A stretch of 64,000 nucleotides of DNA from Occultella kanbiaonis (lineage in GTDB: Bacteria; Actinomycetota; Actinomycetes; Actinomycetales; Beutenbergiaceae): the NCBI RefSeq assembly GCF_009708215.1, contig NZ_CP046175.1:930001-994000 (forward strand), written 5' to 3'. Both the position numbers and the translations under genes were made by a program. The notes below the pieces were generated by a model that ran no database searches, was not told the DNA's origin, and saw only the letters and a list, made by a program, of their open reading frames with translations. Below are positions 1 to 49,410 of this stretch, one piece after another (the first letter of the stretch is position 1; every line of letters starts with the position of its first letter).

Positions 1-142
1 GGTAGAGCATGAACGCGACGAACACCGCGAGGCCCGCGTGCCTGGCGACGGACCGCCCGCACCGGCGGGGCCGGCGCCGGGTGGGCCCACCGGCCGGCGT
101 GCCGGTGGTGGTGGCATTGGGCGTGAGGGTTTGTGTGGTCAT
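1..142 (-). CDS. Carbohydrate ABC transporter permease (MalG-type), N-terminal fragment
   Basis: Only the first 47 or so codons lie in the window; the gene runs off the left edge. The visible peptide is a Thr/Pro/Arg-rich cytoplasmic head followed by the beginning of a hydrophobic segment (LAVFVAFMLYP), the usual start of the second inner-membrane permease of a sugar importer. Two ATGs lie next to the stop of the upstream permease (TGATGATG on the minus strand). The second, at 142, is better spaced from GGAG, so it was chosen. Translational coupling with the MalF-type permease at 145-1056 and the binding protein at 1088-2407 supports the call. The family assignment rests mostly on position. 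Confidence 0.7.
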   Translation of the reverse strand, partial: MTTQTLTPNATTTGTPAGGPTRRRPRRCGRSVARHAGLAVFVAFMLY

Positions 143-144
143 CA

Positions 145-1056
145 TCAGTCTCCGTAGAACACCCAGTACTTGGACAGCAGGAAGTGCCCCGCGGTCATGA
201 CGCCGATGAAGACCAGCAGCACCCAGGCCAGCGCGGAGGCGTAGCCCATGTCGAAGGCCGTGAAGCCCTGCTGGTAGATGTACAGCGTGTAGAAGAGGGT
301 CGAGTCCACCGGGCCTCCGGAGCCGCCGCTGACCACATGCGCCTGGGTGAACGCCTGGAACGCCCCGATCGTCTGCAGGATCAGGTTGAAGAAGATGATG
401 GGCGTCAGCAGCGGCACCGTGATGGAGCCGAACTGGCGCAGCACCGAGGCGCCGTCCACCCGCGCCGACTCATAGAGCTCCTCGGGTATCTGGCGCAGGC
501 CGGCCAGGAAGATCACCATCGGCGACCCGAACGTCCACACGTTCAGGATCACGAGGGTGCCCAGCGCCGTCTGCGGGTTCTGCAGCCAGCTCGAACCCTC
601 GATCCCCACCAGCGCGAGCGCGGAGTTGACGAGACCCGCGTGGCCGAACAGCTCACGCCAGAGCACCGCCACCGCGACACTCGACCCCAGCAGCGAGGGC
701 AGGTAGAACGCGCTCCGGTAGAAGGTCAGCCCGCGCATGCCACGGTCCAGGATCAGCGCGAGCAGCAGCGCGAACGCGAGCTGGAGCGGGACCGAGACCA
801 GCACGTACGTGAGCGTGACCCGGACCGATTGCCAGAACCGGTCGTCGGTGAGCATCCGCTCGAAGTTCGCGGTCCCGATGAACTCCGGGCTGGACAGGAC
901 GTTGTAGTCGGTGAACGCGAGGTAGAGGGAGGCGAGGGTCGGCAGGGCGGTGATGCCGACCAGTCCCACCAACCAGGGCAGCATGAAGACGTGCGCCGCC
1001 CGCCCCTGGCGGTTCAGTCGGCTCTTGCGCCGGGTCGGCGCCGTTGCGGTGGCCAT
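145..1056 (-). CDS. Carbohydrate ABC transporter permease (MalF-type)
   Basis: Integral membrane subunit of a sugar importer, 303 residues, with six predicted membrane segments. The first (residues 23-45) starts AAHVFMLPWLVGLVG. The cytoplasmic EAA loop that contacts the ATPase reads ESARVDGASVLRQFGSITVP (about residues 195-215), a textbook match to the binding-protein-dependent permease family. It lies between the binding-protein gene (31-bp gap) and the second permease (1-4 bp from its start), so the three form a lipoprotein-permease-permease operon. No ATPase gene follows within the window, consistent with the actinobacterial habit of sharing one MsiK ATPase. The substrate is not readable from sequence; the neighbouring hydrolases suggest an oligosaccharide or glycoside. 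Confidence 0.93.
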   Translation of the reverse strand: MATATAPTRRKSRLNRQGRAAHVFMLPWLVGLVGITALPTLASLYLAFTDYNVLSSPEFIGTANFERMLTDDRFWQSVRVTLTYVLVSVPLQLAFALLLALILDRGMRGLTFYRSAFYLPSLLGSSVAVAVLWRELFGHAGLVNSALALVGIEGSSWLQNPQTALGTLVILNVWTFGSPMVIFLAGLRQIPEELYESARVDGASVLRQFGSITVPLLTPIIFFNLILQTIGAFQAFTQAHVVSGGSGGPVDSTLFYTLYIYQQGFTAFDMGYASALAWVLLVFIGVMTAGHFLLSKYWVFYGD

Positions 1057-1087
1057 CAGTGATCGCTCCGGTCCGGGTGCTGTCGCG

Positions 1088-2407
1088 TCAGGACGCGCGG
1101 TCGATGGCGGCCTGGAGCTCGGCGATCATGGCCGTCGCGGCATCGATGGTGGTCGACTGCTCCAGGGCCACCTGCTCGCTGACGCGGGTCAGGATCGTGC
1201 GCCAGGTGCTCGAGCCGGCCGGCGCCTCGTACCGCGGGTTGCGCTCCAGCGCCCGGTCGTGGGCGACGGCGTCGAGCATCTGCTGCTCGTCCGGCGAGGC
1301 GAACTCGGCGACCTCCTCCGCGACCCGCGGGTTCACCGGTGCGCCCATGGTCAGGCCGGTGATCCGGAGCGTGTCGGTGTTGTTCACGCTGAAGTTCAGC
1401 AGGGTGCCCGCGGCTTCGAGGTTGGCCTCGTCGATGCCGCCGAAGATCGCGAGCCGCGGGGTGTACAGGTAGGGGTGACCGGGGGTGGCGTCCGCGGCCA
1501 CGGGCATGGTGCGGAGCTTGAACGTGGCCTCGGGGAAGAACTGGGCGTCGTCGATGATGTGGTTCGAGTTGCCCAAGTAACTCAGCACCCGCTCGCCGAT
1601 CAGCGCCCAGTCCGCGCCGACGCCGTCCTGCTCCGAGAGGGACGGTGCGGCACCGTTCTTGCGCAGGTTCTCCCAGAAGTCCAGCCAGCTCGCGATCCCG
1701 TCGGCGGTGAACCCGATCTGGCCGTCCCCGGTCCACAGCTCCTCGCCGCGCTGGCGCAGCCACGCCTCGAGGGTGAGGTCGTGGTCGGGGCCGTAGTTCA
1801 CGGCCCAGTTGCCGTTCGGGTTGTTCGCGGCGTAGTCGATGGCGAACTCGGTGAAGCCGTCCCAGGTCCAGCCGGCACCCTCGGGCAGGGTGACACCGTC
1901 GGCCTGCGCCATCGTCTCGTTGTAACGGACCACCGGCACGAAGATCCCGAGCGCCATCGTGTTGTGCACGCCGTCGAGGCGCAGGCCGTCGATGTCGTCG
2001 GCGCCGTAGTCGCTCAGGTCGAGGGTCTCGAGCCCGTCCAGGTCGTGGAACATGTCGTTCGCGTAGTAGGTCATCACCTGCGCGGAGGGCACCCAGAACA
2101 GGTCCGGCACGTTGCGCGCGGCCATCTGGGTGGTCATCCGCTCCTGGAACGCGGTGTACTCGGCGAACTCCGTCTCGACCGTGATCTCGGAGTGGTCCGC
2201 CATGAACTGGTTCAGGGCGTTCGTGTAGTTCTCCTGGCGCACGTTGTTGCCCCACCAGGCGTAGCGCAGCGTGGCAGAGCCGCCGGCGTCCATCCCGCCG
2301 CCCCCGCCACCACTGCCGCCACCCACGCCCGAGCAGGCGGCGGCTGTGCCCGCCAGCCCCGCGACGGCGGCGAACTTCAGCACGTTCCTACGGCTCATCT
2401 CACGCAT
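1088..2407 (-). CDS. Extracellular sugar-binding lipoprotein of ABC importer
   Basis: Solute-binding protein, 439 residues, family 1 type. The N-terminus MREMSRRNVLKFAAVAG carries a twin-arginine-like SRRNVLKF motif, then a hydrophobic stretch and a lipobox (TAAAC) with Cys at about residue 25. It is predicted to be exported folded and anchored as a lipoprotein. A Gly-rich linker (GGGSGGGGGG) follows before the mature domain. The start at 2407 is used; Met4 is a possible alternative. It is the first gene of the importer operon (binding protein, then the permeases at 145-1056 and 1-142). A promoter and a GntR-type palindrome lie just upstream (2471-2524). The ligand is unknown. Confidence 0.93.
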   Translation of the reverse strand: MREMSRRNVLKFAAVAGLAGTAAACSGVGGGSGGGGGGMDAGGSATLRYAWWGNNVRQENYTNALNQFMADHSEITVETEFAEYTAFQERMTTQMAARNVPDLFWVPSAQVMTYYANDMFHDLDGLETLDLSDYGADDIDGLRLDGVHNTMALGIFVPVVRYNETMAQADGVTLPEGAGWTWDGFTEFAIDYAANNPNGNWAVNYGPDHDLTLEAWLRQRGEELWTGDGQIGFTADGIASWLDFWENLRKNGAAPSLSEQDGVGADWALIGERVLSYLGNSNHIIDDAQFFPEATFKLRTMPVAADATPGHPYLYTPRLAIFGGIDEANLEAAGTLLNFSVNNTDTLRITGLTMGAPVNPRVAEEVAEFASPDEQQMLDAVAHDRALERNPRYEAPAGSSTWRTILTRVSEQVALEQSTTIDAATAMIAELQAAIDRAS

Positions 2408-2470
2408 CGTTGCGTCTCCCTCATCGGTGAAGTACGGCGGTCCCGTCGTCGGGACCGTCCGGTTGAACTG

Positions 2471-2499
2471 ATGCTAGTTTCGGAACACTTGACGGTCAA
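2471..2499 (-). promoter_or_regulatory. Predicted sigma70-type promoter of the importer operon
   Basis: On the minus strand TTGACC (2499-2494) and TAGCAT (2476-2471) are separated by exactly 17 bp, upstream of the binding-protein gene starting at 2407. The -35 box overlaps a perfect 11-bp palindrome TTGACGGTCAA (2489-2499). Seen directly; promoter activity is inferred. Confidence 0.55.
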
Positions 2500-2513
2500 T
2501 GAATCATGCAAAC

Positions 2514-2524
2514 TTGTTTGACAA
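2514..2524. promoter_or_regulatory. Putative GntR operator (site 1)
   Basis: TTGTTTGACAA differs at one position from TTGTCTGACAA at 7768-7778 and resembles the site at 8696-8706 in front of the GntR gene. It sits 15 bp upstream of the -35 box of the importer promoter. Probably recognised by the regulator encoded at 8724-9404 (inference from repetition and placement). Confidence 0.5.
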
Positions 2525-2547
2525 TCTGCCACCAGCGTTCCGGATCC

Positions 2548-4629
2548 CTACTCGAGGACGAGCACCTCGAACCTGCCGACGGTCGGGGTCGTGACCCGGA
2601 TCCCGCCCTCCGTCGGGGACACCGGCACCTCCACGCCCGCCACGAGCGCCCGGGCCCGTGGCGGTGGTCCGGACCACGGCAGACTCACCTCGACCGGCGC
2701 GATCGGCACCGGGTCGAGGAAGCGCTGGACGGCGTCACCGCTGCGGTTCAGCAGGTGCACCACCGTGCCCGCGTCCGACCGGCCGCGGACCACCTGGAGC
2801 TGCTCGGGGATCCCGGTGCCGCTCGGGCGGGCGCCCAGGGCACGGATCCTCGTCGCGACCTCGTCGCGCACGGCGCGCAGACCCTGCTCGCGGTAGACCC
2901 GCCCGACGGTCCATGGCAGGTGGGCCACGGTGCCGCCGTCGAGGGTCCGTTCGGCGTAGCCGGGGTGATCGGCCTCGGTGTGGCCGTAGCACTTCTCCGG
3001 TGGGCCGTACGGCGCCCGGCCAAGGGTCGGCAGGGCGACCGAGGCGTCCGGATGCGGCTCGATGACGTGCAGGGCGCCGATGACCGGAGCGGGCCGGCCC
3101 CACGGGTGCCCGGACGGCGTGGTGCCGTCGAGACGCACGTAGGCGGCCCGGGTCGCCTCCACCGAGGTCAGACCGGCGAGGTGGCGACGCACCGGGGACG
3201 CGGCCAGCTGACCGGCGCCCGCGGCGAGCGCGGACGAGCCGGTGGCGAGCACGGACCCGCCGGCGGCCACGAACGCGTCCAGGGCGGCCACCGCCTCCGG
3301 GGCGAGTTCGCCCACGTCCGCCAGGACCACGACGCGGTACCCGGTGAGCGAGCCGACGCCGTCGCCCGGGCGCCTCAGATCGGCAAGGTCGGCGATCCGA
3401 CTGCTGCTGAGCACGTCGAACGGCAGGTGGGTCTCCGCGAGGGTGAGGTACAGGCCCTCGAACTCCGAGCGGACGCCCTCGGCGCGGTCAGGCCCGACGC
3501 GGTCACCCCGGACCAGCAGCACGTCCGAGTCGGGTCGCAGCCCGGCGTAGACGTTGGCGTGGTCGCGGTGGAACCGGGTGATCTCGCCGGCCACGGTGAT
3601 GTTCTCGTACGGGCTGTCGCTCGGGCGGCCCATCACGTAGGTGGACGGCACCGCGCCGTGCGCGATCGCCTGGATCAGGAACTGGGCGAAGTGGTTCGGC
3701 TCCTCGCCGGCGAGCCGGTACGGCATGTCGACGAACCCGACGGCGTTGACCAGCACCGGCACGTGCGGCCGGTACGCCTTCGCCGCCGAGACGTGCTCGG
3801 CGGTGAGGTGGTGCCAGAGCGGACGGCCGACACCGTTGTTCGCCTCGTGGAAGACGATGTCCGCGCGGTCGCCGAGGATCAGGGCTGCGCCCGGGGCTAG
3901 GGAGCGGATGTGGGCCCGGAGCCGGGCGGTGAGGTCGTCCAGGGTGAGGCGGGCGTAGTCCTGCCAGGTCCGGTAGCCGGGGGAGGAGGGCTCCTCCGGC
4001 AGCGGGGTACCGGGCGCGAACGCGGCGAAGCCCTCCCGGCAGGCCAGGCAGTGGCACACGCCCCAGTAGGTGCGCGAGTAGTCCACCTCATTGAAGGACA
4101 TCCAGTTCAGGAAGAAGCCGGCGATGTCATAGCGGGTGAGCACCTCGGTGATCACCTCGAACACCTGCTCCTGGTAGTACGGCCCGCTCGGGCACACGCT
4201 GACCAGGCCGTTGTAGACCTGGTTCTCGCCGCGGGCGTTCACGAACAGCCACTCCGGGTGTGCCTCGGCGCGGCGCCGGTCCACCTTCGAGAAGTCCATC
4301 CGGCCGAGCACCCGGACGCCACGCTCGGCCGCGGCCGCGACCGCGTCGCCGACCAGGTCGCCCGAGGTGCGCCCGGCCAGGGCCGGGTTCGGGGTCTGGC
4401 TCGCGAGCGCCGTCGGGTAGTTCGAGACGATCCCACCCACGGACAGCAGCCAGACGTTCGCGCCGAAGTCCTCGAGGAAGTCCAGCACGCCGGGGACGTC
4501 CAGGTCCGCGTCGATCTCGCGCAGGTTCGTCTGGAACGTGCGGAACGGCGCGCGCCACCACTCGGTCGCCGGGCTCGCCTTGGCGGGCTGGTCGCCGGAC
4601 TGGGCGGCCCGGGTGTTGAGAGCGGTCAC
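2548..4629 (-). CDS. TIM-barrel hydrolase-like protein with GH42-type trimerisation domain (GHL6-like), copy A
   Basis: A 693-residue cytoplasmic protein with no signal peptide. Residues about 25-330 look like a (beta/alpha)8 barrel of the 'hypothetical glycosyl hydrolase 6' kind: HPEWLFVNARGE, then DIAGFFLNWMSFNE. A Cys-rich motif CHCLACREGF (192-201) recalls the metal-binding Cys cluster of GH42 enzymes. Residues about 365-490 form a flavodoxin-like trimerisation domain (VVVLADVGEL, FVAAGGSVLATG), and a beta-rich tail ends the chain. The start is GTG at 4629, overlapping the stop of the reductase gene (GTGA). It is paralogous in architecture to the protein at 5566-7734. It probably acts intracellularly on an imported glycoside; substrate and activity are unproven. 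Confidence 0.8.
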   Translation of the reverse strand: MTALNTRAAQSGDQPAKASPATEWWRAPFRTFQTNLREIDADLDVPGVLDFLEDFGANVWLLSVGGIVSNYPTALASQTPNPALAGRTSGDLVGDAVAAAAERGVRVLGRMDFSKVDRRRAEAHPEWLFVNARGENQVYNGLVSVCPSGPYYQEQVFEVITEVLTRYDIAGFFLNWMSFNEVDYSRTYWGVCHCLACREGFAAFAPGTPLPEEPSSPGYRTWQDYARLTLDDLTARLRAHIRSLAPGAALILGDRADIVFHEANNGVGRPLWHHLTAEHVSAAKAYRPHVPVLVNAVGFVDMPYRLAGEEPNHFAQFLIQAIAHGAVPSTYVMGRPSDSPYENITVAGEITRFHRDHANVYAGLRPDSDVLLVRGDRVGPDRAEGVRSEFEGLYLTLAETHLPFDVLSSSRIADLADLRRPGDGVGSLTGYRVVVLADVGELAPEAVAALDAFVAAGGSVLATGSSALAAGAGQLAASPVRRHLAGLTSVEATRAAYVRLDGTTPSGHPWGRPAPVIGALHVIEPHPDASVALPTLGRAPYGPPEKCYGHTEADHPGYAERTLDGGTVAHLPWTVGRVYREQGLRAVRDEVATRIRALGARPSGTGIPEQLQVVRGRSDAGTVVHLLNRSGDAVQRFLDPVPIAPVEVSLPWSGPPPRARALVAGVEVPVSPTEGGIRVTTPTVGRFEVLVLE

Positions 4630-5504
4630 GTCGTGGCCCGTCCGGCCGCGTTGCCGAGCACCCGGTGCAGCGCGGAGTGGTCGGCGTCGCCGAGCCCCTG
4701 GGCGATCGCGGCACTCATGAGCTCGTGCGCGGAGGCGGTGTGCGGCAGCGGCAGGTCCATCGCCCGCGCGGAGCCGAGGGCGAGGCCGAGGTCCTTGCGG
4801 TGCAGCCGGATCCGGAAACCGGGGTCGTACGTGTGATCGACCATCCGCTGCCCGTGCACCTCGAGGATGCGCGAGGAGGCGAAGCCGCCCATCAGGGCCT
4901 CCCGCACCACCGCCGGGTCGACCCCCGCGGCCTCCGCGAACGTCAGCCCCTCGGCCACGGCCTGGATGGTCAGGGCGACGATGATCTGGTTGGCGACCTT
5001 CGCCGTCTGGCCGGCACCGACGTCCCCGACGTGGGTGATGGTGGCGCCGAGGACCTCGAGCAACGGTGTGGCCCGCTCGAACGCGGCCGCGGTCCCGCCG
5101 GCCAGGATGGTCAGGGTCCCGGCTCGGGCGCCGACGTCCCCGCCGGAGACCGGGGCGTCGAGGTACTCGCCGCCGGCGTCGGTGATCCGCGCCGCGAAGG
5201 ACCGGGTGGCGACCGGCGAGATGGAACTCATGTCGATGACCAGGGTGCCGGGACGCAACGCCGCGGCGACGCCGTCGGTCCCGAACAGGACGTCCTCGAC
5301 GTCCGAGGTGTCCGGGAGCATGAGGATCACGACGTCGGCCTCCGTGGCCGCGTCCGCGGCGGAGGTCGCGCGGCGCCCGCCCGCCTCGACGAGGTGCTCG
5401 GTGGACTCCTTCACGCGGTGGAGGTGGACGGTGTGGCCGGCGGCGATCAGGTTGGCCGCCATCGGGGCGCCCATGACGCCGAGTCCGATGAATCCGATCT
5501 GCAC
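4626..5504 (-). CDS. glxR: NAD(P)-dependent 2-hydroxy-3-oxopropionate (tartronate semialdehyde) reductase-like
   Basis: A 292-residue beta-hydroxyacid dehydrogenase. It has the N-terminal dinucleotide fold GLGVMG (7-12), the substrate-binding signature DAPVSGGDVGA (117-127) and the catalytic lysine in GQTAKVANQ (K169), followed by the all-helical domain. The family includes 3-hydroxyisobutyrate and tartronate semialdehyde reductases, which cannot be separated by motif alone. The hydroxypyruvate-isomerase-like gene at 7825 favours tartronate semialdehyde to D-glycerate. The GTG start at 5504 has a good AAGGAG seven bases upstream. It lies between the two hydrolase-like paralogues and overlaps the downstream one by 4 bp. 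Symbol given with moderate certainty. Confidence 0.82.
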   Translation of the reverse strand: MQIGFIGLGVMGAPMAANLIAAGHTVHLHRVKESTEHLVEAGGRRATSAADAATEADVVILMLPDTSDVEDVLFGTDGVAAALRPGTLVIDMSSISPVATRSFAARITDAGGEYLDAPVSGGDVGARAGTLTILAGGTAAAFERATPLLEVLGATITHVGDVGAGQTAKVANQIIVALTIQAVAEGLTFAEAAGVDPAVVREALMGGFASSRILEVHGQRMVDHTYDPGFRIRLHRKDLGLALGSARAMDLPLPHTASAHELMSAAIAQGLGDADHSALHRVLGNAAGRATT

Positions 5505-5565
5505 GTGTATCTCCTTCGATGAGGGTGGCCCCGCTCGACGCAGGGCAGGGCAGGGCAGGGTGCGG

Positions 5566-7734
5566 TCAGGTCCAGGTCAGGTGCGCGACCTCGAGGACGT
5601 CGACGGCGGGCACGCTCACGTGGACCCGGCCGTCGGCGACGTGCGCCGGCGCCCGGGTGTCGGCGAGGTGCAGCCGCGCGGTCGCACCGGTGGCGCCCGG
5701 TGGGAGGGCCACCGAGATCTCCTGCGGCGGCAGTGGGATGGTCTCGCGGTTCTGCCCGCGCATGGCCATCGGGTTGTTCAGGTTCACCAGGGCCACCGCC
5801 ATCGACGTCTGGTCCGTGCGGACGGCGACGTCCACGAGCCCCTGGCCCTCGACGCGCACCCGGGGTTCGCCGCCGAGCGCCCAGGCGACGGCGTTCTGGA
5901 TGAGCCGGGCATGGTCGTGCTGCATCGCGGCCCAGAGGATCTCGCCCACGTTGAACGCCAGGTACACACTGCGCCCACCACCCGGCTGCTCGCGGCAGAC
6001 CACCGCGGCCGAGCCCTCCCCGCCGCGGGGATAGACCTCCTCCATCGGCAGGTCCGGGTAGTCCGGCACGAACCGGAACGGGACCGAGGTGAGGCGATCA
6101 CCCGGCGCACCGGCCGCCGTCGGGGTCTCGATCGGCTCGACCCCGACGAGGTGCGTGCCGCCGACCACCCGGGTGGCCCCGTCGAAGCCGGCGGCGACCG
6201 GGTGCTGCGGGTCGAGCGTGATGTAGTTGTTCTTGACCGGCCCGCGCGGGGCCCCGGTGAGGCGGACGCCGAGCACGTCGCCGAGGGCGAGGTCCGCGCC
6301 GCCGGCGTCGTCGGTCACGAGGGACGACTCGTGGGCGGCCACCAGGCTGCCGCCGCCGGCCACCCATTCGCGGATCACCGCGCAGTGCGCGTCGGACAGG
6401 GCCCGGCAGTTCGGCAGGATCAGGACCCGGTACGGGGCGAGCCGTTCGAGGGTGAGTTCTTGATCCGCGATGTAGTCGAACGGCACCCGAGCCTCGACGA
6501 GGGCCTGGTAGAAGCCGTCCTCGTCCGCGCTGCCGGCGGTGTGGCTCGCCCACGGGTTCGTCGGGTCGAGGCGGACGTTGTCCAGGACCGCGACCTCGCT
6601 CGTGATCTGCATGCCCGCGAACACGCCGGCGACGCGCTCGTGCAGCGTGAAAGCCTCCACGATCGGCGACACCCAGCGGGTGTCGAACACGTTCGCGTTG
6701 AACTTCGTGTACCAGGGCAGCGCGCCGTGCACGAAGCCGTCGGCCATCCAGGTCACGATCTCGTGCGGGTCGGCGACCGAGTCCTTCCACCGGTACTCGC
6801 CGTGCTCGGGACCGACCGAGGTGATCAGCGCGACCGGGCGGTCCGGGAACATGCCCCGGCTGCGCTTGCCGATCCGCCCCGACCACCACAGCGCCTCGTT
6901 CTCGGACCGGCCCTGCTTGTCGATGAAGAACATCGGGTACCGGTCGTCGACGAGGTCGCGGACCAGGTCCCGGGTCAGCATCGCGCCACGGTTGGGGATG
7001 AACCGGGCGTGCGGGCGCACCTCGCGCACCGCGTCGTCCCAGAGCACCACGAGCTCGGACAGCTGCCGGCTGCGCCAGGTGGTGTAGGCGCGCCACGCCG
7101 GGTCCGTGCGGTCCTGCGTGCGCGGCAGGTGCAGGCCGGTGTCGTCGAAGAACTGGCGCTCGGCACCCTCGGAGTAGGAGATCGCGGACGGCCCCTCCCA
7201 GCGGTTCGCGAACACCGCGTCCACGTCGTAGTCGCGCACGATCTCGCGGGCGACCTCGGTGATGAACTCGCGGTGGTAGCTGCTGAACGGGTCGGTCAGC
7301 CAGATGTCCGGGAACGCCCAGTGCGGGATCGGGTTGCCGTCGGCGTCGCGGGCGAGCCACTCCGGGTGGGCGTGCGCGGCGTCGGCGTGGATCGCGTGCG
7401 GGTCCACCCGGGCCATCACGTGCATGCCCAGCTCACGGGCGCCGGTGACCAGCTCGCCGAACGGGTCGGTGTCCCCGAGGTACCTGCTGCGGTAGTGGAA
7501 CGGGATCTGGGTGGGATAGAACGCCATGTAGCCGCCCGCGCTCAGGCACAGCGCGTCGGAGCGGGACTCGCGCATCACCGAGATCCAGAAGTCCGGGTCG
7601 AAGTGCAGCGGATCGTCCTCCACGAAGGTCAGCTGCGTCCACCGGGTGGCGGTGCGGAACCAGTCCAGCGAGCGCTCGGCGGCGGGGTTCTGCGGGAGGG
7701 GGTCGAGCCCGGGCTCGTGATCCGTAGTCAGCAT
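5566..7734 (-). CDS. TIM-barrel hydrolase-like protein with GH42-type trimerisation domain (GHL6-like), copy B
   Basis: A 722-residue cytoplasmic protein. The barrel region covers about residues 20-400, with landmark segments HAHPEWLARDADGN and DVDAVFANRWEGPS. About residues 405-540 form a GH42-like trimerisation domain (VLILPNCRALSDAH, WVAGGGSLVAAHESS). The last 150 residues are a beta-sandwich. It shares architecture and the PEWL(A/F) landmark with copy A but lacks its CxCxxC cluster. The start at 7734 is preceded by GAGAGG; a longer upstream open frame was rejected because it crosses the regulatory region and the divergent gene. First gene of the minus-strand operon (61 bp before glxR). 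Probably intracellular sugar processing; the exact reaction is unknown. Confidence 0.8.
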   Translation of the reverse strand: MLTTDHEPGLDPLPQNPAAERSLDWFRTATRWTQLTFVEDDPLHFDPDFWISVMRESRSDALCLSAGGYMAFYPTQIPFHYRSRYLGDTDPFGELVTGARELGMHVMARVDPHAIHADAAHAHPEWLARDADGNPIPHWAFPDIWLTDPFSSYHREFITEVAREIVRDYDVDAVFANRWEGPSAISYSEGAERQFFDDTGLHLPRTQDRTDPAWRAYTTWRSRQLSELVVLWDDAVREVRPHARFIPNRGAMLTRDLVRDLVDDRYPMFFIDKQGRSENEALWWSGRIGKRSRGMFPDRPVALITSVGPEHGEYRWKDSVADPHEIVTWMADGFVHGALPWYTKFNANVFDTRWVSPIVEAFTLHERVAGVFAGMQITSEVAVLDNVRLDPTNPWASHTAGSADEDGFYQALVEARVPFDYIADQELTLERLAPYRVLILPNCRALSDAHCAVIREWVAGGGSLVAAHESSLVTDDAGGADLALGDVLGVRLTGAPRGPVKNNYITLDPQHPVAAGFDGATRVVGGTHLVGVEPIETPTAAGAPGDRLTSVPFRFVPDYPDLPMEEVYPRGGEGSAAVVCREQPGGGRSVYLAFNVGEILWAAMQHDHARLIQNAVAWALGGEPRVRVEGQGLVDVAVRTDQTSMAVALVNLNNPMAMRGQNRETIPLPPQEISVALPPGATGATARLHLADTRAPAHVADGRVHVSVPAVDVLEVAHLTWT

Positions 7735-7763
7735 CGTTGCGACCTCTCGTTCGGCGTCCTCGT

Positions 7764-7792
7764 AGTATTGTCTGACAAGATAGCAAGTACAA
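7764..7792 (-). promoter_or_regulatory. Predicted promoter of the hydrolase-like operon, overlapped by an operator
   Basis: On the minus strand TTGTAC (7792-7787) and AATACT (7769-7764) are 17 bp apart, upstream of the start at 7734. Both boxes are weak matches, but the -10 region is covered by the palindrome at 7768-7778, fitting a repressed promoter. Confidence 0.4.
7768..7778. promoter_or_regulatory. Putative GntR operator (site 2), perfect palindrome
   Basis: TTGTCTGACAA is an inverted repeat around one central base, in the 90-bp divergent space between the hydrolase-like operon and the hydroxypyruvate-isomerase-like gene. A second inverted repeat (AGTAC...GTACT, 7786-7800) lies beside it. 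One regulator could control both directions from here. Confidence 0.55.
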
Positions 7793-7824
7793 CATGTACT
7801 GCCCAGAGTCTTGGAGTGTGAGAC

Positions 7825-8631
7825 GTGCAGCACCTCGGCTACGACCTCAGTGCCAACGTGTCCCTGCTGTGGACCGAGCATGACTACCTCGATCGGTTCG
7901 CGGCCGCGGCGGACGCCGGCTTCGGGGCGGTGGAGACCTGGTGGCCGTTCCCGGCCGCCGAGCCGAGCGCCGCGCAGGAGTCGGAGCTGCTGCGGGCGAT
8001 CGAGGCCGCCGGGGTGCGCCTGCGCGGGCTGAACTTCTTCGCCGGGGACATGCCCGCGGGCGAGCGGGGGATCGCCATGGACGCGGCCCGGCGGACAGAG
8101 CTGATCGCCAACGTCGCCGCGGTGCGGCGGATCGCCGAGGCCACCGGCTGTGACCGGTTCAACCTGCTCTACGGCCAGTTGGCGGACGACGAGGACCCGA
8201 CGGCGCAGCACGCCACCGCGCAGGAGGCGGTCACCATCGCGGCCGCTGCCCTGGCCGACCAGGGCGGGGTGGTGCTGATCGAGCCGCTCGCCGCCGGGCT
8301 GAACGGGGCCTACCCGCTGCGCACGCACGAGGACGTGATCGCCCTGCTGGACGGCCCGTTCGCGGGCGTGGGAAACGTCGGCCTGCTGTTCGACACGTTC
8401 CACCTGGCCATGAACGGCGTGGACGTGGTCGCGGCCGCGGTGCGGTCCGCGGCGCATATCGCGCACGTGCAGATCGCCGACGCCCCCGGTCGGGGCGAGC
8501 CCGGATCGGGTGACCTGGCCTGGGACGAGGTGTTCACCGCGCTGCGGGTGGCCGGCTTCGCGGGGCCGGTCGCCGCCGAGTACCGGCCCACCGGGTCCAC
8601 GGCGGACTCCCTGGCGTGGGTTCGCCCGTGA
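7825..8631 (+). CDS. hyi: Hydroxypyruvate isomerase-like TIM-barrel protein
   Basis: A 268-residue sugar-phosphate-isomerase-type barrel. Candidate catalytic glutamates are E153 (VVLIEPLAAG) and E252 (VAAEYRP), with metal ligands D190 (LLFDTFH) and H217, the order found in hydroxypyruvate isomerase and related xylose-isomerase-like proteins. The known reaction of the family is hydroxypyruvate to tartronate semialdehyde, which would feed the reductase at 4626-5504. GTG start at 7825 with GGAG eight bases upstream. Transcribed divergently from the hydrolase operon and 92 bp ahead of the GntR gene. Could also be another keto-sugar epimerase; the pairing with the reductase is the main argument. 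Confidence 0.8.
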   Translation: MQHLGYDLSANVSLLWTEHDYLDRFAAAADAGFGAVETWWPFPAAEPSAAQESELLRAIEAAGVRLRGLNFFAGDMPAGERGIAMDAARRTELIANVAAVRRIAEATGCDRFNLLYGQLADDEDPTAQHATAQEAVTIAAAALADQGGVVLIEPLAAGLNGAYPLRTHEDVIALLDGPFAGVGNVGLLFDTFHLAMNGVDVVAAAVRSAAHIAHVQIADAPGRGEPGSGDLAWDEVFTALRVAGFAGPVAAEYRPTGSTADSLAWVRP

Positions 8632-8695
8632 GCGGCGGTGGCATCCCCTACAGTGGCTCCGGACGGCGGGGTGGCCGATCCCTAGACTCGTCTCA

Positions 8696-8706
8696 TCGTC
8701 AGACAA
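8696..8706. promoter_or_regulatory. Putative GntR operator (site 3), upstream of the regulator gene
   Basis: TCGTCAGACAA matches the reverse complement of site 2 (TTGTCAGACAA) except for one base. It ends 17 bp before the ATG of the GntR gene, just ahead of its GAGGTG ribosome binding site. Suggests autoregulation. Confidence 0.5.
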
Positions 8707-8723
8707 TCTCCCGAGGTGATCGC

Positions 8724-9404
8724 ATGAGCGCAGGGCAGTTCCAGCTTGGTCCGTCCTCGCTCACCGATGCCCTCTACGAGTCGGTCCGGAGCCGGATCAT
8801 CAGCGGGGACATCGCCCCCGGTGAGAAGCTCACCGAGCAGCGGATCGCCGACGACTACCGGGTCGCGCGTCCGACCGCGAAGGCCTGCCTCGAACGGCTC
8901 ACCGCGCTCGGGCTGCTGCGCCGGTCCGCCCACAAGACGGCCGTGGTGCCCGAGCTCGACGAGGTCGACATCACCGACCTGTTCTTCACCCGCGAGATGT
9001 TCGAGTGCACCGCCGCGGACCGGCTGGCGCAGGCACGCACCGTGCCGGAGGCGGCCCGCAAGGCCCAGACGGCGATCGAGTCCGCGGTCCGCGCGAAGGC
9101 GTTCGACGACCAGGTGGTCGCGGACATCGAGTTCCACTGGGCGCTCATCAACGCTGTCGACAGCCCTCGGTTGTCCCGGGTCTACGAGATGGTCAGCGGC
9201 GAGGTGCACCTGACGATGGGGCAGTTCAAGGCGCACCGGCGCACCACCCCGTCGACCGTGGCGGCCGAGCACGCGCTGATCCTGAAGGCGATCGAGGACG
9301 GCGACCGCGCCGCAGCTCGCGAGCAGATGGCACACCACCTGCAGCAGGCGCGGGACCGGGTCCTCGCCCAGGTGGTCGCCTCGCGCGAGGAAGCCCCGGC
9401 CTGA
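8724..9404 (+). CDS. GntR-family (FCD) transcriptional regulator
   Basis: A 226-residue regulator. A winged helix-turn-helix occupies residues about 12-75 (LYESVRSRIISGDIAPGEKL, typical GntR opening). A helical FCD effector domain covers about 80-215 and includes the EFHWALINA and EHALILKAIEDGD segments of that family, which usually binds a carboxylated sugar or organic acid through a metal. The ATG at 8724 follows GAGGTG; a longer reading frame from 8616 was rejected because it overlaps the upstream gene and the operator. It sits next to the hyi-like gene, and three matching palindromes (2514, 7768, 8696) mark a likely local regulon. Confidence 0.9.
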   Translation: MSAGQFQLGPSSLTDALYESVRSRIISGDIAPGEKLTEQRIADDYRVARPTAKACLERLTALGLLRRSAHKTAVVPELDEVDITDLFFTREMFECTAADRLAQARTVPEAARKAQTAIESAVRAKAFDDQVVADIEFHWALINAVDSPRLSRVYEMVSGEVHLTMGQFKAHRRTTPSTVAAEHALILKAIEDGDRAAAREQMAHHLQQARDRVLAQVVASREEAPA

Positions 9405-9825: not shown

Positions 9826-9922
9826 GGACCCGTGCCGGTCGGCCGAGGGGCCGGCCGGCGACGGACAGTACCCCGAACGGGATGAGGCAGGGCCCGGCAG
9901 CCCCCGCGTAGTGTCCGCGGCT

Positions 9923-11587
9923 ATGACCTCCGCGAGCGGGACCGCGACCGCAACCGGCCGACCGGCCTGGCTGCTGCCGACCCTCGTCGGATATCGACGG
10001 CGGTGGCTCGGCAAGGACGTCACCGCGGGTCTGTCCGCGGGGGCGGTCGTGGTGCCGCAGGCCATGGCCTACGCCACCGTCGCGAACCTGCCGGTCGAGA
10101 TCGGGCTGTACACGTGCATCGTCCCGATGGTCGTGTACGCCCTGCTCGGCGGCAGCCGGGCCATGAGCGTGTCGACGACGTCGACGATCGCCACCCTGAC
10201 CGCGACCACGCTGGTCTCCGCGGGCGTCGCCGCCGGCTCCGACGACGCGGGGGACGTCCTCGGCTCGCTCGCGGCCCTGACGCTGCTGGTCGGCGTCGTG
10301 CTGATGGCCGCACGGCTGCTCCGGCTCGGCTCGCTCGTCGAGAACATCAGCAACGCCACGGTGCTCGGCCTGAAGATCGGGGTCGGCGCCACGGTCGCCG
10401 TCGGGCAGCTGCCGAAGCTCCTCGGCGAGACCGTGAACGTCAGCGGCGAGGGATTCTTCCGCGGGCTGGGCGCGGTCGTGCAGGCGTGGGACAGCATCAG
10501 CGGCGTGACCGTGGCGCTGTCCATCGGATCGATCCTCGCCATCGTGCTGCTCAAGGCGTTCGCGCCACGGGTCCCGGGGGCGCTGCTCGTCGTCGTGGCC
10601 GGGATCCTGATCGTCGCCCTCACGTCGGCACGCGAGGCGGGCCTTGAACTGATCGACCCGGTGCCCTCCGGGCTGCCGGTACCGCGACTGCCGGACCTCA
10701 CCCACCTCGGCGCGCTCGCGCCGGGCGCACTCGCGATCGCGGTCATGGTGTTCATGGAGACCGCAGCCGTGGCGAAGGGCATCCGCAAGCCGACCGAGCC
10801 GATGATCGACAGCGACGCCGAGCTCCTCGCCGCGAGCGCCGCGAACCTCGCCGGTGGCCTGTTCGGTGCGATGCCAGCCGCCGGCGGGTTCTCCCAGAGC
10901 GCCGTGAACGAGGGCGCGGGGGCTCGCTCGCAGCTCTCCGCCCTGGTGACCGTCGCGCTCGCCGTGGCCGTCGCACTGTTCCTCGGCCCGGTGCTGAGCC
11001 TGCTCCCGCAGGCGACGCTCGCGGCCGTGGTGTTCGTCGCCGTCGCGGGCCTGATCCAGATCCCCACCTTGGTGCAGTGGGCCCGGATCAGCCCGCGGGA
11101 CTTCTGGATCGCGAGCGCGGTGGCCGCCGTGGGTCTCACGGCAGGCCTGCTGGCTGCGGTCGGCCTGGGCGTGGTGCTGACCCTCGTCCTCGTGCTGCGC
11201 GAGCTGAACATCCCGAGGCTCGACGGCGTGGTTCGCCGGGGCGGCGCCCTCGCGGTCCACCTCGGGCGTGGGCTCTACACCGCGAACGCGCTCGAGAACG
11301 AGCGCGCCATCGTTGCCCTTGCCACGACGCAGGAGGAGCCCATCGACACCCTGGTCCTGGACGTCGAGCGCCTCGACGTGGTCACGATGACCGTGCTGGG
11401 CGCCCTCGAGGAACTCGACCGGGACCTGGCCGGCCACGGCGTCGAGCTGCACCTGGCCAGGCTGCCGGACTCCGCCGTCGAGGTCGCCGGGAAGGTGACC
11501 TGGTACCAAGGGATGGCGGCGGCCGGTCGCGTCCATGACAGCGTCGAGGACGCACTGGCCGCCGCAACGGGCCGAGAACCCACCTGA
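9923..11587 (+). CDS. SulP-family anion transporter with STAS domain
   Basis: About 555 residues. The N-terminal 430 residues are membrane-embedded (10-14 segments) and begin with the family pattern KDVTAGLSAGAVVVPQAMAYA. The C-terminal STAS domain (about 445-550) contains LVLDVERLDVVTMTVLGAL. SulP proteins move sulfate, bicarbonate or other anions across the cytoplasmic membrane. ATG at 9923 is preferred; GTG at 9911 is possible, and neither has a clear ribosome binding site. It converges with the arylsulfatase gene 9 bp away, so a sulfate role is attractive but inferred. Confidence 0.9.
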   Translation: MTSASGTATATGRPAWLLPTLVGYRRRWLGKDVTAGLSAGAVVVPQAMAYATVANLPVEIGLYTCIVPMVVYALLGGSRAMSVSTTSTIATLTATTLVSAGVAAGSDDAGDVLGSLAALTLLVGVVLMAARLLRLGSLVENISNATVLGLKIGVGATVAVGQLPKLLGETVNVSGEGFFRGLGAVVQAWDSISGVTVALSIGSILAIVLLKAFAPRVPGALLVVVAGILIVALTSAREAGLELIDPVPSGLPVPRLPDLTHLGALAPGALAIAVMVFMETAAVAKGIRKPTEPMIDSDAELLAASAANLAGGLFGAMPAAGGFSQSAVNEGAGARSQLSALVTVALAVAVALFLGPVLSLLPQATLAAVVFVAVAGLIQIPTLVQWARISPRDFWIASAVAAVGLTAGLLAAVGLGVVLTLVLVLRELNIPRLDGVVRRGGALAVHLGRGLYTANALENERAIVALATTQEEPIDTLVLDVERLDVVTMTVLGALEELDRDLAGHGVELHLARLPDSAVEVAGKVTWYQGMAAAGRVHDSVEDALAAATGREPT

Positions 11588-11596
11588 CGGCAGGCG

Positions 11597-13096
11597 TCAG
11601 GAGTTCCCGGCCGAGCTCCTGAGCTTCTCCATCACCTTATTGATGGTGAACGAGGCCGGTTCCTGGCGCGGCGGGAACTCCACGAACGTCTGCAGCATCG
11701 AGGCCACGTACGCCTGGGCCGGCACGAGCAGGAAGATGCGCGACATCATCCAGTCGTAGTAGGTGTTGGACGTGCGGTCGGCCCGTTCGAACGGGTCGGT
11801 CCTCAGGTTGAAGATCTTCGGCGCCCGCAGCTCGACCCACGGGTCCAGCCACACGGCGAGCGTGCCCTCGGTGCGCTGCTCGAGGAACACGATCTTCCAG
11901 TTGTCGAAGCGCAGCGCGGTGAGGTCGCCCTCGTCCGAGACGTAGAAGAAGTGGTTGCGTGGACTCTCGTCCGTGGCGCCCGTGATGTAGTCGAGCTGGT
12001 TGTGGCCGTCGAGCTGCACCCGGTACTCGACGCCGTTCAGTTCGGTCCCCGCCGCCAGCCGGTCGGCGATGTCGGTGTCACCGGCGGCGGCGAGCAGCGT
12101 GACGAACCAGTCGTTGTGGCTGACGATGCCGTTCAGCGTCGTCCCGGCCGGGATGTGCCCGGGCCAGCGCACCATCGCGGGCACCCGGTAGGCGCCCTCC
12201 CAGTTCGAGTTCTTCTCGTTCCGGAACGGGGTCATCGCGCCGTCGGGCCAACTGTTCATGTGCGGACCGTTGTCCGTGGAGTACATGACGATCGTGTCCT
12301 CGGCGAGGCCGAGCTCGTCGATCAGGTCGAGCAGGCTGCCGACGACGTCGTCGTGGTAGAGCATCGCGTCGTGGTATTCCGACTGCCAGCGGCCGGCCCG
12401 GCCCTTGTCCTGCTCGCGCACGTGCGTCCGGAAGTGCATGTGGGTCGCGTTGAACCAGACGAAGAACGGTGTCTCGTCGTCGGCCTTGGCGCGGATGAAG
12501 TCCGCGGCGGCGTCACGGAACTCCTCGTCGCAGGTCTCCATGCGCTTCTTCGTGAGCGGGCCGGTGTCCTCGATCCGCTGGGTGCCGTCCCCGTTCGCCC
12601 AGGAGTGGATGACCCCACGCGGGCCGAACCGGTCGTGGAAGTTGGGGAACTCCTCGGGTGAGGGGTAGTCGGGGTGCTCGGGCTCCTCCTCGGCGTTGAG
12701 GTGGTAGAGGTTGCCGAAGAACTCGTCGAAGCCGTGCATCGTGGGCAGGAACTCGTCCCGGTCGCCCAGGTGGTTCTTCCCGAACTGACCGGTCGCGTAG
12801 CCCTGCGCCTTGAGCGCCGTGGCGATCGTCGGATCCTCTGCGCGCAGGCCGACATCGGCCCCCGGCATGCCGACCTTGGTCAGCCCGGTGCGGTACGGGT
12901 TCTGCCCGGTGATGAAGGCGGCCCGGCCCGCGGTGCAGCTCTGCTCGCCGTAGTAGTCGGTGAACTTCACCCCCTCGCTGGCGACGCGGTCGATGTTGGG
13001 TGTTCGGTAGCCCATCACGCCGTCGGAGTACGTACTGAGGTTGGTGAGGCCGATGTCGTCGCCCCAGATGATCAGGATGTTCGGCTTGTCTGCCAC
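11597..13096 (-). CDS. Arylsulfatase (type I, formylglycine-dependent)
   Basis: A 499-residue alkaline-phosphatase-fold sulfatase without a signal peptide. Metal-binding Asp13/Asp14 sit in IIWGDDIG. The sulfatase signature SCTAGRAAFITG holds Cys54 in the CxAxR context that is oxidised to formylglycine. GKNHLGD and MYSTDNGPH supply further active-site residues. It removes sulfate from an organic ester. The gene for a formylglycine-generating enzyme lies 1.2 kb away (14261-15172), and a SulP transporter converges from the other side, so sulfate-ester use is the likely job. The start at 13096 lies 163 bp from the divergent HAD gene. Confidence 0.93.
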   Translation of the reverse strand: MADKPNILIIWGDDIGLTNLSTYSDGVMGYRTPNIDRVASEGVKFTDYYGEQSCTAGRAAFITGQNPYRTGLTKVGMPGADVGLRAEDPTIATALKAQGYATGQFGKNHLGDRDEFLPTMHGFDEFFGNLYHLNAEEEPEHPDYPSPEEFPNFHDRFGPRGVIHSWANGDGTQRIEDTGPLTKKRMETCDEEFRDAAADFIRAKADDETPFFVWFNATHMHFRTHVREQDKGRAGRWQSEYHDAMLYHDDVVGSLLDLIDELGLAEDTIVMYSTDNGPHMNSWPDGAMTPFRNEKNSNWEGAYRVPAMVRWPGHIPAGTTLNGIVSHNDWFVTLLAAAGDTDIADRLAAGTELNGVEYRVQLDGHNQLDYITGATDESPRNHFFYVSDEGDLTALRFDNWKIVFLEQRTEGTLAVWLDPWVELRAPKIFNLRTDPFERADRTSNTYYDWMMSRIFLLVPAQAYVASMLQTFVEFPPRQEPASFTINKVMEKLRSSAGNS

Positions 13097-13259
13097 GATG
13101 AGCTCCCTCGGTTCGGCGGCGGGAAAGTCCCCGCGATGATCGAATCACCGTGGCCGGCCGCACAGATCATCCGTCCCGGGTGAGCCCGCGGTCCGCTGCC
13201 ATCCGTAGCGTTCGGCGAACGTGGGCGGCGTGAGGTCCGTCCGGATAGGGGAACCGACA

Positions 13260-14204
13260 ATGACCGAAACCCTGCCGTCCTGGCGTGAGGGCCCCACCCG
13301 GGCGGCGATCACCGAGTTCGTCGCCGCCGTCACCACCGAGGGCAGCCCTGACTTCGTCCCACCCGAGGGCCGGGTCGCGGTCTTCGACAACGACGGCACG
13401 CTCTGGACCGAGAAGCCGATGGTGGTCCAGCTGCACTACGTGCTGCAGCAGTGGAAGGCCGCGGCGGAGGCGGACCCGAGCCTGGCCGAGAAGCAGCCGT
13501 ACCTGGCCGCGGTCTCCGGGGACCTGGCCTGGCTCGGGGCGGCGGTGGACAAGCACTACGCCGGGGACGACGCGGACCTGGGACTGATCATCGCGGCGGT
13601 GTCAGCCGCCAGCGCCGGCTCGAGCGTCGAGGAGTACGAAGCGTCGGTGGCGGCGTTCTTCCGGGATGCGCGGCACCTGACGCTGGACCGGTCCTACGCC
13701 CACACGGTGTACCAGCCGATGGTCGAGCTCATCCGGCTGCTGGACGCCCACGACTTCCGGACCTACATCGTCTCTGGGGGCGAACGCGACTTCATGCGCT
13801 TGATCGCCCAGGACTACTACGGGATCCCGACCCAGCGTGTGGTCGGCACCGGGCTCGGCCTGGAGTACGACGCCGAGCACAACGTGGTGCGCTACAAGAG
13901 CGCCCTGGCGTTCTTCGACGACGGCCCCGAGAAGCCGGTCCGGATCTGGATGCGCACCGGGCGGCGGCCGATCCTCGCCGCCGGCAACTCCAACGGGGAC
14001 ATCCCGATGCTCCGGTTCGCCCAGGGCAACCCGCGCAGTCTCGCACTGCTGGTCAACCACGACGACGACACCGACCGCGGTGACACCCCGTACACCAAGG
14101 GCGCCGAGAAGGCGATCGACGCGGCGCCGGCGCACGGGTTCACCGTGGTCAGCGTCCGCGACGACTGGTCGCAGGTCTTCCCGGCCGGCGACCACCAGGA
14201 CTGA
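13260..14204 (+). CDS. HAD-superfamily hydrolase (SerB-like)
   Basis: A 314-residue haloacid-dehalogenase-type hydrolase. Motif I is FDNDGTLW (about residues 43-50; the first Asp is the nucleophile), motif II is the Ser in YIVSGG, and motif IV is GNSNGDIPM. It acts on a phosphate ester; the substrate is unknown. The ATG at 13260 has GGGGA seven bases upstream; in-frame GTGs further upstream were rejected. It is divergent from the arylsulfatase and convergent with the formylglycine-generating enzyme, which suggests involvement in the same sulfated-compound pathway. Confidence 0.85.
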   Translation: MTETLPSWREGPTRAAITEFVAAVTTEGSPDFVPPEGRVAVFDNDGTLWTEKPMVVQLHYVLQQWKAAAEADPSLAEKQPYLAAVSGDLAWLGAAVDKHYAGDDADLGLIIAAVSAASAGSSVEEYEASVAAFFRDARHLTLDRSYAHTVYQPMVELIRLLDAHDFRTYIVSGGERDFMRLIAQDYYGIPTQRVVGTGLGLEYDAEHNVVRYKSALAFFDDGPEKPVRIWMRTGRRPILAAGNSNGDIPMLRFAQGNPRSLALLVNHDDDTDRGDTPYTKGAEKAIDAAPAHGFTVVSVRDDWSQVFPAGDHQD

Positions 14205-14260
14205 GGCGGTCCGACCGCACGAGCCGGGCTGCGCCGTCGGGCATGCGCGGGAAGCGCCGC

Positions 14261-15172
14261 TCAGGCGTCCTTCGCGCAGCGGAACCCGATGTGGGACATG
14301 CCGGTGTCCTCGGCCTGCGGCGAGCGCGCCGCGGGCCGGAACCGCAGGCAGTACTCCGGCGAGCACAGCTGCGACCCGCCCTTGAGCACCCGGCGGGGGA
14401 TCGCGAACCCCTCCTGCGCGCTGGCGGTCGCGAGCAGGTTCGTGCGCTTGCCCGGGTCCACCGGGTTGTCGGACAGGCGCAGGTGGCGCGGCGTGTAGTA
14501 GTCCGACGTCCACTCCCAGACGTTACCGATCAGGTCGAACAGGCCGTAGCCGTTCGCCGGGTAGGACCCGACCGGTGCGGCGTCGCCGACGCCCTGGTTG
14601 TCGTAGGGGAAACGCCCGAGCCAGGTGTTCGCCTGGGCGACGCCGCCGGGATAGGGCTCGTCGCCCCACGCGAACCGCTCGCCGTCCACGCCACCGCGCG
14701 CCGCGTACTCGTGCTCGGCCTCGGTCGGCAGCCGCAGGCCCGCCCAGGTCGCGTACGCCGTCGCGTCCTCGAAGGCCACGTGGATGACCGGGTGCTGCAG
14801 GCGGTCGGCGACGGAGGAGTTCGGGCCGAACGGCCGGCGCCAGTACGCGCCCGGCTGCCAGCGCCACCAGTTGCGCCAGTTCCGCAGGTCGACCGGGCCG
14901 TCGGTCGGTGTGAACACCATGGCACCGGGGACGAGGTCGGCCGGGTCGGCACCCGGGAAGTCCTTCGGGTCCAGCTCGCGCTCGGCCACCGTGACGTAGC
15001 CGGTCGCGTCCACGAAGCGGCCGAACGCGGCGTTCGTGACCTCGTGCCGGTCGATCCAGAACGGAGCGACCTCGCGCTCGTGCACCGGCCGCTCGTCGGG
15101 GTAGAAGTCCTCCGACCCCATCAGGAACGTGCCGCCGTCGAGGCGGACCATGTCGTGGTGCGTGCTCGTCAT
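14261..15172 (-). CDS. Formylglycine-generating enzyme (sulfatase-modifying factor)
   Basis: A 303-residue SUMF1-type protein covering nearly the whole chain (GGTFLMGSEDFYPDERP, then GNVWEWTSDYY). The copper-binding catalytic pair is present as GGSQLCSPEYCLRFRPAAR (Cys270 and Cys275), the arrangement required for aerobic oxidation of a sulfatase Cys to formylglycine. Many SUMF1 relatives lack these residues, so this looks like a true activator, most likely of the arylsulfatase at 11597-13096. ATG at 15172 or 15178 (MVMTSTHH); AGGAG lies ten or four bases upstream respectively. Confidence 0.9.
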   Translation of the reverse strand: MTSTHHDMVRLDGGTFLMGSEDFYPDERPVHEREVAPFWIDRHEVTNAAFGRFVDATGYVTVAERELDPKDFPGADPADLVPGAMVFTPTDGPVDLRNWRNWWRWQPGAYWRRPFGPNSSVADRLQHPVIHVAFEDATAYATWAGLRLPTEAEHEYAARGGVDGERFAWGDEPYPGGVAQANTWLGRFPYDNQGVGDAAPVGSYPANGYGLFDLIGNVWEWTSDYYTPRHLRLSDNPVDPGKRTNLLATASAQEGFAIPRRVLKGGSQLCSPEYCLRFRPAARSPQAEDTGMSHIGFRCAKDA

Positions 15173-15234
15173 GACCATGGGACTCCTTCGTTGGGCGGCG
15201 AACGCGATTCTAGGCGTGGTGCCGGCAGGGCCGC

Positions 15235-48589: not shown

Positions 48590-48678
48590 GGAGGGTTGAC
48601 AGAGCGGCCGAATGTGACGGTCTTGAAAACCGTTGTGCCTCAACAGCACCAAGGGTTCGAATCCCTTACCCTCCGCCA
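48590..48678 (+). tRNA. tRNA-Ser (anticodon TGA)
   Basis: Acceptor stem GGAGGGT pairs with ACCCTCC. The anticodon loop CTTGAAA gives TGA, read from GGTCTTGAAAACC. A long variable arm is present, as expected for serine, and the T arm has GGTTCGAATCC. Discriminator G and CCA (48676-48678) are encoded. Confidence 0.95.
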
Positions 48679-48689
48679 GATCCACCGAG

Positions 48690-48716
48690 CCGGCCCTGCG
48701 GGTCCGTCAGGGCCGG
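48690..48716. terminator. Hairpin after tRNA-Ser(TGA)
   Basis: CCGGCCCTG and CAGGGCCGG form a perfect 9-bp stem with a 9-nt loop. The hairpin includes the stop codon of the convergent DUF4166 gene, so it can serve both transcripts. Confidence 0.5.
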
Positions 48717-49327: not shown

Positions 49328-49410
49328 CCGGCGATCCTACGGTCGGACCGGACCGTCTCGCCGTTTTGGCCGAGGCCGCGCCGGGCGGGTACGCTGTCCC
49401 GTGTTGTCTA

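Follow-up and report, generated by a model that had tools for sequence, protein, structure and literature searches.

A conserved Occultella gene cluster around two glycosidase-fold GHL6 proteins and its possible route to D-glycerate

What does a bacterium take up and break down with a gene cluster that joins an ATP-binding cassette (ABC) sugar importer to two GHL6 proteins, GHL6-A and GHL6-B (A and B below), and to Hyi and GlxR, whose families usually serve glyoxylate metabolism? We analyzed such a cluster at the left end of a 64-kb stretch of Occultella DNA (G000:C1:930001-994000 in a complete 5.65-Mb genome; family Ruaniaceae), referred to here as the window. Judged by its gene set, its conservation, a shared motif, a predicted fold and residue changes, the cluster is a real, conserved catabolic system of known families, at whose centre stands a clade of glycosidase-fold proteins in which a catalytic residue has changed. 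We regard as evenly balanced the proposition that cleavage by A and B yields a three-carbon acid, at the oxidation level of hydroxypyruvate or tartronate semialdehyde, which would end as D-glycerate. No description of this gene set was found in the open-licence literature among the matches listed.

The genes named in the original prediction (two GHL6 genes, GlxR, Hyi, an importer and a GntR/FCD regulator) are all present at 145-9404, with the second importer permease lying left of the window. GHL6-A is a GH151-like protein of three domains (2548..4629, minus strand). At higher coordinates on the same strand come GlxR (4626..5504), a predicted 2-hydroxy-3-oxopropionate (tartronate semialdehyde) reductase that matches TIGR01505 with 362.4 bits (cut-off 340.75) and the structures 9rb2 and 1yb4, and GHL6-B (5566..7734), from the sister clade of A. 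The Hyi-like hydroxypyruvate isomerase, an AP_endonuc_2 barrel, is encoded on the plus strand (7825..8631; PF01261, E 2.4e-32; TIGR03234, E 1.2e-66; structures 1k77 and 3ngf).

A search of 199 relatives for GHL6-A (E 1e-20) matched 19 of them, the patchy spread of an accessory pathway. Scanning GTDB contigs confirmed 188 places, of which we retained the best 80, ranked by similarity to A, and recounted gene families in these loci by tblastn. GHL6 was present in all 80, 2-hydroxyacid dehydrogenase in 68, GlxR in 62, Hyi in 35 and glycerate kinase in 11. Permeases were found in 57, a CUT1 binding protein in 52, GntR in 38, LacI in 25 and an Opp-type binding protein in 17, along with malate synthase G (7) and beta-glucuronidase (6). 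Glyoxylate carboligase (Gcl), tested with one query at E 1e-15, was found in none of the 80. At least one of GlxR, Hyi and 2-hydroxyacid dehydrogenase accompanies GHL6 in 75 of the 80 loci, which carry 41 genus or metagenome-assembled genome (MAG) labels; by elimination the other five are L069, L070, L083, L107 and L133, of which four are cut short where their contig ends. Because partner genes recur in 75 of 80 loci, the neighbourhood is not a product of chance, and the conserved co-occurrence that the original prediction proposed as a check is borne out. For comparison we ran BLAST (E 1e-20, 60% coverage) on seven further sugar-ABC regions that encode related permeases in the window genome. 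At these limits GHL6, Hyi and glycerate kinase were not found there, and the matches consisted of one GlxR-like gene (35%, L152) and one dehydrogenase (29%, L148). A separate match to the Hyi family, weak at 56 bits, does fall in one of these regions, L149.

Both Hyi and GlxR have their usual role in general glyoxylate metabolism, and their presence beside A and B could be incidental. The original prediction had remarked on the absence of glyoxylate carboligase and glycerate kinase. This holds for the window locus but not for the genome, in which glycerate kinase, Gcl, GlxR and Hyi are adjacent at 3.760-3.765 Mb, nor for those loci that do contain a glycerate kinase. Given this separate operon, whose GlxR and Hyi share 48% and 43% identity with the window copies, the window enzymes look dedicated. 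Among the 19 genomes with GHL6-A, Gcl scored over the curated cut-off in 7, and an eighth, fragmented genome (G004, 580 contigs) has a Gcl piece adjoining a kinase piece; glycerate kinase is present in 19 of 19. With Gcl in only some of these genomes and the kinase in all, the cluster is independent of Gcl. The separate operon, the 41 labels and the operator motif described below make an incidental neighbourhood highly improbable, and a plain general-glyoxylate role was dropped once the operon had been found. As predicted, the isomerase and reductase do not appear confined to general glyoxylate metabolism. The cluster shares with the gcl-hyi-glxR-glxK pathway Hyi, GlxR and, among some relatives, glycerate kinase, all directed toward D-glycerate. 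It differs in having its own importer and regulator and no Gcl in the best 80 loci, and in that its three-carbon acid would come from A and B rather than from two molecules of glyoxylate.

What A and B might do is best approached through their predicted fold. Both match PF14871 (GHL6) above the gathering cut-off of 35 bits (A, 92 bits; B, 60.2 bits), and they share 24% identity over 750 aligned columns. Their modeled domain order, a TIM barrel, a Rossmann-like domain and a C-terminal beta domain, is that of GH151, and the closest fold to the models is the GH151 alpha-L-fucosidase 6tvk. In structural alignments A and B are 17-20% identical to GH151 fucosidases (ALfuk2 of Paenibacillus thiaminolyticus, PDB 6tvk; Mfuc3). 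A passage of PMC10154630 gives the GH151 nucleophile as Asp154, at the end of strand 4 (numbering offset +29, derived from chain lengths of 689 and 660). In contrast, A and B have Asn at this position in 153 of 153 aligned rows, a set in which some loci occur twice (Asn175 in A, Asn177 in B). Duplicate loci are likewise present in the 98-locus and Hyi/GlxR row sets used below; examples are L042/L060, L046/L081, L048/L076, L050/L085, L052/L087, L053/L086, L054/L093 and L057/L138. An Arg-x-Asp at the end of strand 3 (Arg110-x-Asp112 in A) is invariant in A and B together with the strand-4 Asn, and is not present in the six Asp-type GHL6 proteins compared. A also carries a CxCxxC motif, which B does not have. 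The GH151 acid/base, Glu235, ends strand 6, and in A the sixth strand closes with an invariant Glu, Glu262; the residue of B aligned to Glu235 is mostly Asp in one alignment and mostly Leu in the other. Because the two alignments disagree on how A and B pair in strands 6 and 7, we limit the joint claim to the strand-3 and strand-4 pattern. The original prediction had hydrolase-like A and B cutting a glycoside; with Asn at the nucleophile position, a role as ordinary aryl-glycosidases appears doubtful.

Among the partner genes, Hyi is coupled to B. Across the 80 loci both are present in 34, B alone in 9, Hyi alone in 1 and neither in 36; by gene caller the counts are 32, 10, 1 and 37, and with each genus-architecture counted once they are 16, 8, 1 and 28. 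The set was found via A, and operons with B alone cannot show up in it. The 37 loci without B have GlxR in 24, the dehydrogenase in 32, Hyi in 1, an Opp-type binding protein in 16 and malate synthase in 7. By gene calls, GlxR and 2-hydroxyacid dehydrogenase occur together in 54 of the 80 loci; in O. glacieicola the dehydrogenase stands at the end of the cluster (L043 4773-5735). B homologues, about 50% identical where identity is listed, are also present on plasmids of Agrobacterium, Rhizobium and Martelella. Five such alphaproteobacterial loci have an operon of LacI, binding protein, B, two permeases, ATPase, Hyi/OtnI and GlxR, which in one of them, A. vaccinii, is followed by glycerate kinase. 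The GlxR of A. tumefaciens is 64% identical to that of the window. Plasmid loci of Rhizobium acidisoli and Devosia combine GHL6, GlxR and the dehydrogenase.

These operons bear on a different possibility, in which A and B would work as ordinary glycosidases by means of a different nucleophile, with the freed sugar feeding the cell and Hyi and GlxR handling a longer sugar acid, such as a four-carbon tetronate, in the manner of OtnI and LtnD. The nearest fold, 6tvk, is indeed a true glycosidase, and the Hyi homologues are labelled 2-oxo-tetronate isomerase in four of the five B operons and hydroxypyruvate isomerase in the fifth; OtnI and LtnD of the L-threonate/D-erythronate (Otn/Ltn) pathways are homologous to Hyi and GlxR. 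Yet the GH151 nucleophile is uniformly replaced by Asn, the window proteins score higher as Hyi (224.7 bits, against 170.5 for the OtnI model) and as tartronate semialdehyde reductase, and glycerate kinase recurs among the clusters. We therefore consider this alternative unlikely. The Hyi and GlxR of other clusters are often nearer to the gcl-operon copy than to the window copy (20 of 45 rows for Hyi, 49 of 77 for GlxR). In seven Nonomuraea loci they are 59-65% (Hyi) and 73-78% (GlxR) identical to the gcl-operon copies, and in other loci the preference is slight. Action of Hyi and GlxR on a longer sugar acid, which the original prediction had also entertained, is doubtful given this similarity and the glycerate kinase in some clusters.

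A further alternative is that A and B are not hydrolases but break a carbon-carbon bond in a keto sugar acid by a retro-aldol reaction, with an aldehyde and either hydroxypyruvate or tartronate semialdehyde as products. The lost nucleophile Asp and the invariant Arg-x-Asp and Asn at the ends of strands 3 and 4 would suit such chemistry, and no aldolase family match was found in the representative neighbours scanned. We know of no GH151-fold aldolase, however, and import of the CUT1 or Opp type fits conjugates better than free sugar acids, so that retro-aldol cleavage seems improbable.

A layout without a listed ABC importer is found in Sphingobium. Closely related plasmids from tomato-root Sphingobium include at least 10 that match the GHL6-A homologue and at least 10 that match B. 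In strain TomTYG74 the gene order is GHL6-B, cyclase, SDR, GlxR (59% identical to the window GlxR), Hyi, D-glycerate 2-kinase and L-lactate permease, followed by GHL6-A, a hypothetical gene, GntR and a second MOFRL-type kinase, the last scanned in TomMM15. Over the 40 kb displayed around the TomTYG74 locus, the annotation includes no ABC importer. Both GHL6 proteins start, by eye, with twin-arginine-like stretches. A pair of GHL6 proteins with such starts, beside a monocarboxylate permease and glycerate kinase, suggests that cleavage outside the cytoplasm sets free a small monocarboxylate. No other single observation points as clearly to release of the three-carbon acid in the GHL6 step itself.

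The released acid might instead be glycerate itself, freed by A and B from a glucosylglycerate-like conjugate, with GlxR, Hyi and the dehydrogenase converting the wrong isomer or an oxidized form to D-glycerate in a redox-neutral inversion. This would account for the joint occurrence of GlxR and 2-hydroxyacid dehydrogenase, and for the lactate permease and two MOFRL-type kinases of Sphingobium; catabolism of glucosylglycerate or mannosylglycerate could likewise yield a glycerate unit and a sugar. D-glycerate once freed would need the kinase alone, however, and the dehydrogenase is not listed in the five B operons. A mycobacterial glucosylglycerate hydrolase has reportedly been described and is not known to belong to the GHL6 family, and the glucosylglycerate and mannosylglycerate hydrolases known so far fall in families other than that of GHL6-A and -B. 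On balance release of glycerate is quite unlikely.

At the window locus the importer consists of a binding protein and two permeases, as in the CUT1 class. The binding protein, with a twin-arginine translocation (Tat)-like signal, is encoded at 1088..2407 (minus strand; PF13416, E 3.7e-24; nearest solved relative YesO, 5z6b, E 5.4e-22), and a permease of the MalF/UgpA type at 145..1056 (minus strand; PF00528, E 6.3e-11; NF007852, E 4.3e-29, under its cut-off). The second permease occupies 1..145 on the minus strand, most of its gene (G000:C1 929240-930145) lying left of the window; it belongs to a BLAST family common to the second permease of related loci. An ATPase gene was not seen in the window operon; CUT1-class importers commonly share an ATPase encoded elsewhere. 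The importer was considered as an indicator of the substrate and set aside: the nearest solved binding protein was YesO, and an Opp-type binding protein matched many peptide and metal binders.

A candidate operator, the palindrome TTGTCnGACAA, links the promoters of the cluster. With one mismatch or fewer there are five sites in the window against 0.5 expected, and 5 was reached in 0 of 100 shuffles. Three of the five lie at cluster promoters: TTGTTTGACAA, with one mismatch, between GHL6-A and the binding-protein gene (2514..2524); TTGTCTGACAA, an exact copy, inside the 90-bp divergent region between GHL6-B and Hyi (7768..7778); and TCGTCAGACAA, with one mismatch, upstream of the GntR/FCD gene (8696..8706), none being assigned a strand. 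The regulator gene follows at 8724..9404 on the plus strand (FCD, E 4.7e-18; GntR, E 2e-11), and its product would be the protein that binds the palindrome. FCD regulators often bind small carboxylic acids. The site before the binding-protein gene is also found in O. aeris (L042/L060) and O. gossypii (L061), and was not found in O. glacieicola (L062). In 98 related loci there are 100 sites, spread over 49 loci and 79 of them outside called genes, compared with 10 sites in one mononucleotide shuffle. Genome-wide, TTGTYnGACAA occurs at five places, two in the window cluster and a third adjoining a GHL6 gene at 2.05 Mb (L041), where the site in the divergent intergenic region is again TTGTTTGACAA. 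The operator at three promoters and the recurrence under 41 labels agree with the earlier view of a dedicated system with its own importer and regulator.

We propose the following pathway. A small acidic conjugate, either a glycoside or a sugar-acid conjugate, would be taken in by the CUT1-type importer and cut by A and B, the GH151-fold barrels with altered active sites, so that a three-carbon acid leaves, perhaps as the enediol common to hydroxypyruvate and tartronate semialdehyde. Hyi would pool the two tautomers, the direction we presume for it, and GlxR, joined in most relatives by the 2-hydroxyacid dehydrogenase, would reduce them to D-glycerate, from which the glycerate kinase encoded elsewhere in the window genome would make 2-phosphoglycerate. 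The GntR/FCD regulator, presumably a sensor of a small acid, would control the three promoters through TTGTCnGACAA. In the simplest assignment B would give hydroxypyruvate, which would explain its Hyi, and the product of A would be tartronate semialdehyde or the two tautomers together, which would explain GlxR and the dehydrogenase. Departure of the acid as the shared enediol, which we put forward tentatively, would explain why GlxR plus dehydrogenase alternates with Hyi plus GlxR. The three-carbon keto-acid step of the original prediction thus receives support. More speculatively, and rather less likely to be right than wrong by a wide measure, GHL6-A and GHL6-B would form a new enzyme class in which a glycosidase fold has given up its nucleophile and, through lyase-like or retro-aldol chemistry, frees the enediol form of hydroxypyruvate or tartronate semialdehyde from an unrecognised acidic sugar conjugate. 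They would then head a pathway across Actinomycetota, Alphaproteobacteria and Chloroflexota whose importers are of at least three types (CUT1, Opp-type and lactate-type permease). If the proposal is true, the cluster is a Gcl-independent entry to the glycerate pathway. Its recurrence under so many labels means that the substrate may be an ordinary compound with an undescribed breakdown. The two clades also offer a clean case of a glycosidase fold in which the nucleophile was exchanged and the new residue retained; sister paralogues and Asp-type outgroups are available for comparison, as is a predicted regulon.

Several observations weigh against the release of a three-carbon acid by A and B. 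To our knowledge no A or B protein has a known activity, and no neighbour gene names a substrate. GlxR is missing from 13 of 37 loci without B and from 5 of 43 with B, and the window locus has neither the dehydrogenase nor the glycerate kinase seen in relatives. Among more distant, plasmid-borne GHL6 loci, those of Shinella, Novosphingobium and one Neorhizobium plasmid list no GlxR or glycerate kinase, and that of Marinovum lists no GlxR; for a second Neorhizobium locus and a Roseinatronobacter locus, sparse annotation or truncation precludes a judgement. Some A loci contain glucuronate genes, GlcD or malate synthase, and their products may differ. Related species repeat among the best 80 of the 188 places, and the counts are not independent. 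The 224.7 bits of the window Hyi against TIGR03234 are under the equivalog cut-off of 353.45, as are the 232.9 bits of the gcl-operon Hyi from the same genome. Finally, the genome-wide total of operator-like sequences (5 places) is not above that of a reversed control pattern (4 and 5).

Other GHL6 loci vary in content. The window genome has a second GHL6-A locus (L040, G000:C1:1776787-1783074), whose GHL6 protein shares about 50% identity with A. It has a separate importer, a 2-hydroxyacid dehydrogenase, a HIT-domain gene and an adjoining LacI regulator, and no GlxR or Hyi was called in it. The third GHL6 locus, L041 (G000:C1:2049929-2057865), has an importer and ThuA-like and Gfo/Idh/MocA-like genes. 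GHL6-A loci L119, L123, L134 and L135 contain UxaC, UxuB and enolase-superfamily genes, and beta-glucuronidase is present as well in three of the four, hinting at glucuronate in some substrates. As a general substrate clue, glucuronate genes, malate synthase, GlcD and GH3 were dropped, each occurring in just 4 to 7 of the 80 loci. Near some GHL6 loci (L122 14425-17061, L130, L059 and L143 4581-7175) proteins of 845-878 residues, without significant Pfam match, adjoin an enolase-superfamily dehydratase (sugar-acid dehydratase); the L143 protein was placed in this group by size and place only.

Leftward of the second permease, a gap of about 260 bases is followed by a 113-residue gene on the same strand and then by an opposite-strand gene that looks MFS-like by eye. 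On the other side, at 9911-15178, the cluster is adjoined by genes for a SulP-type permease, a sulfatase and a HAD protein and by one that looks FGE-like by eye; these families are labelled at the cluster-flanking place in Occultella loci only, and the genes probably form a separate sulfate-ester system. Further along the window, at 48590-49501, are two tRNA-Ser genes (tga and gct) with about 0.7 kb between them.

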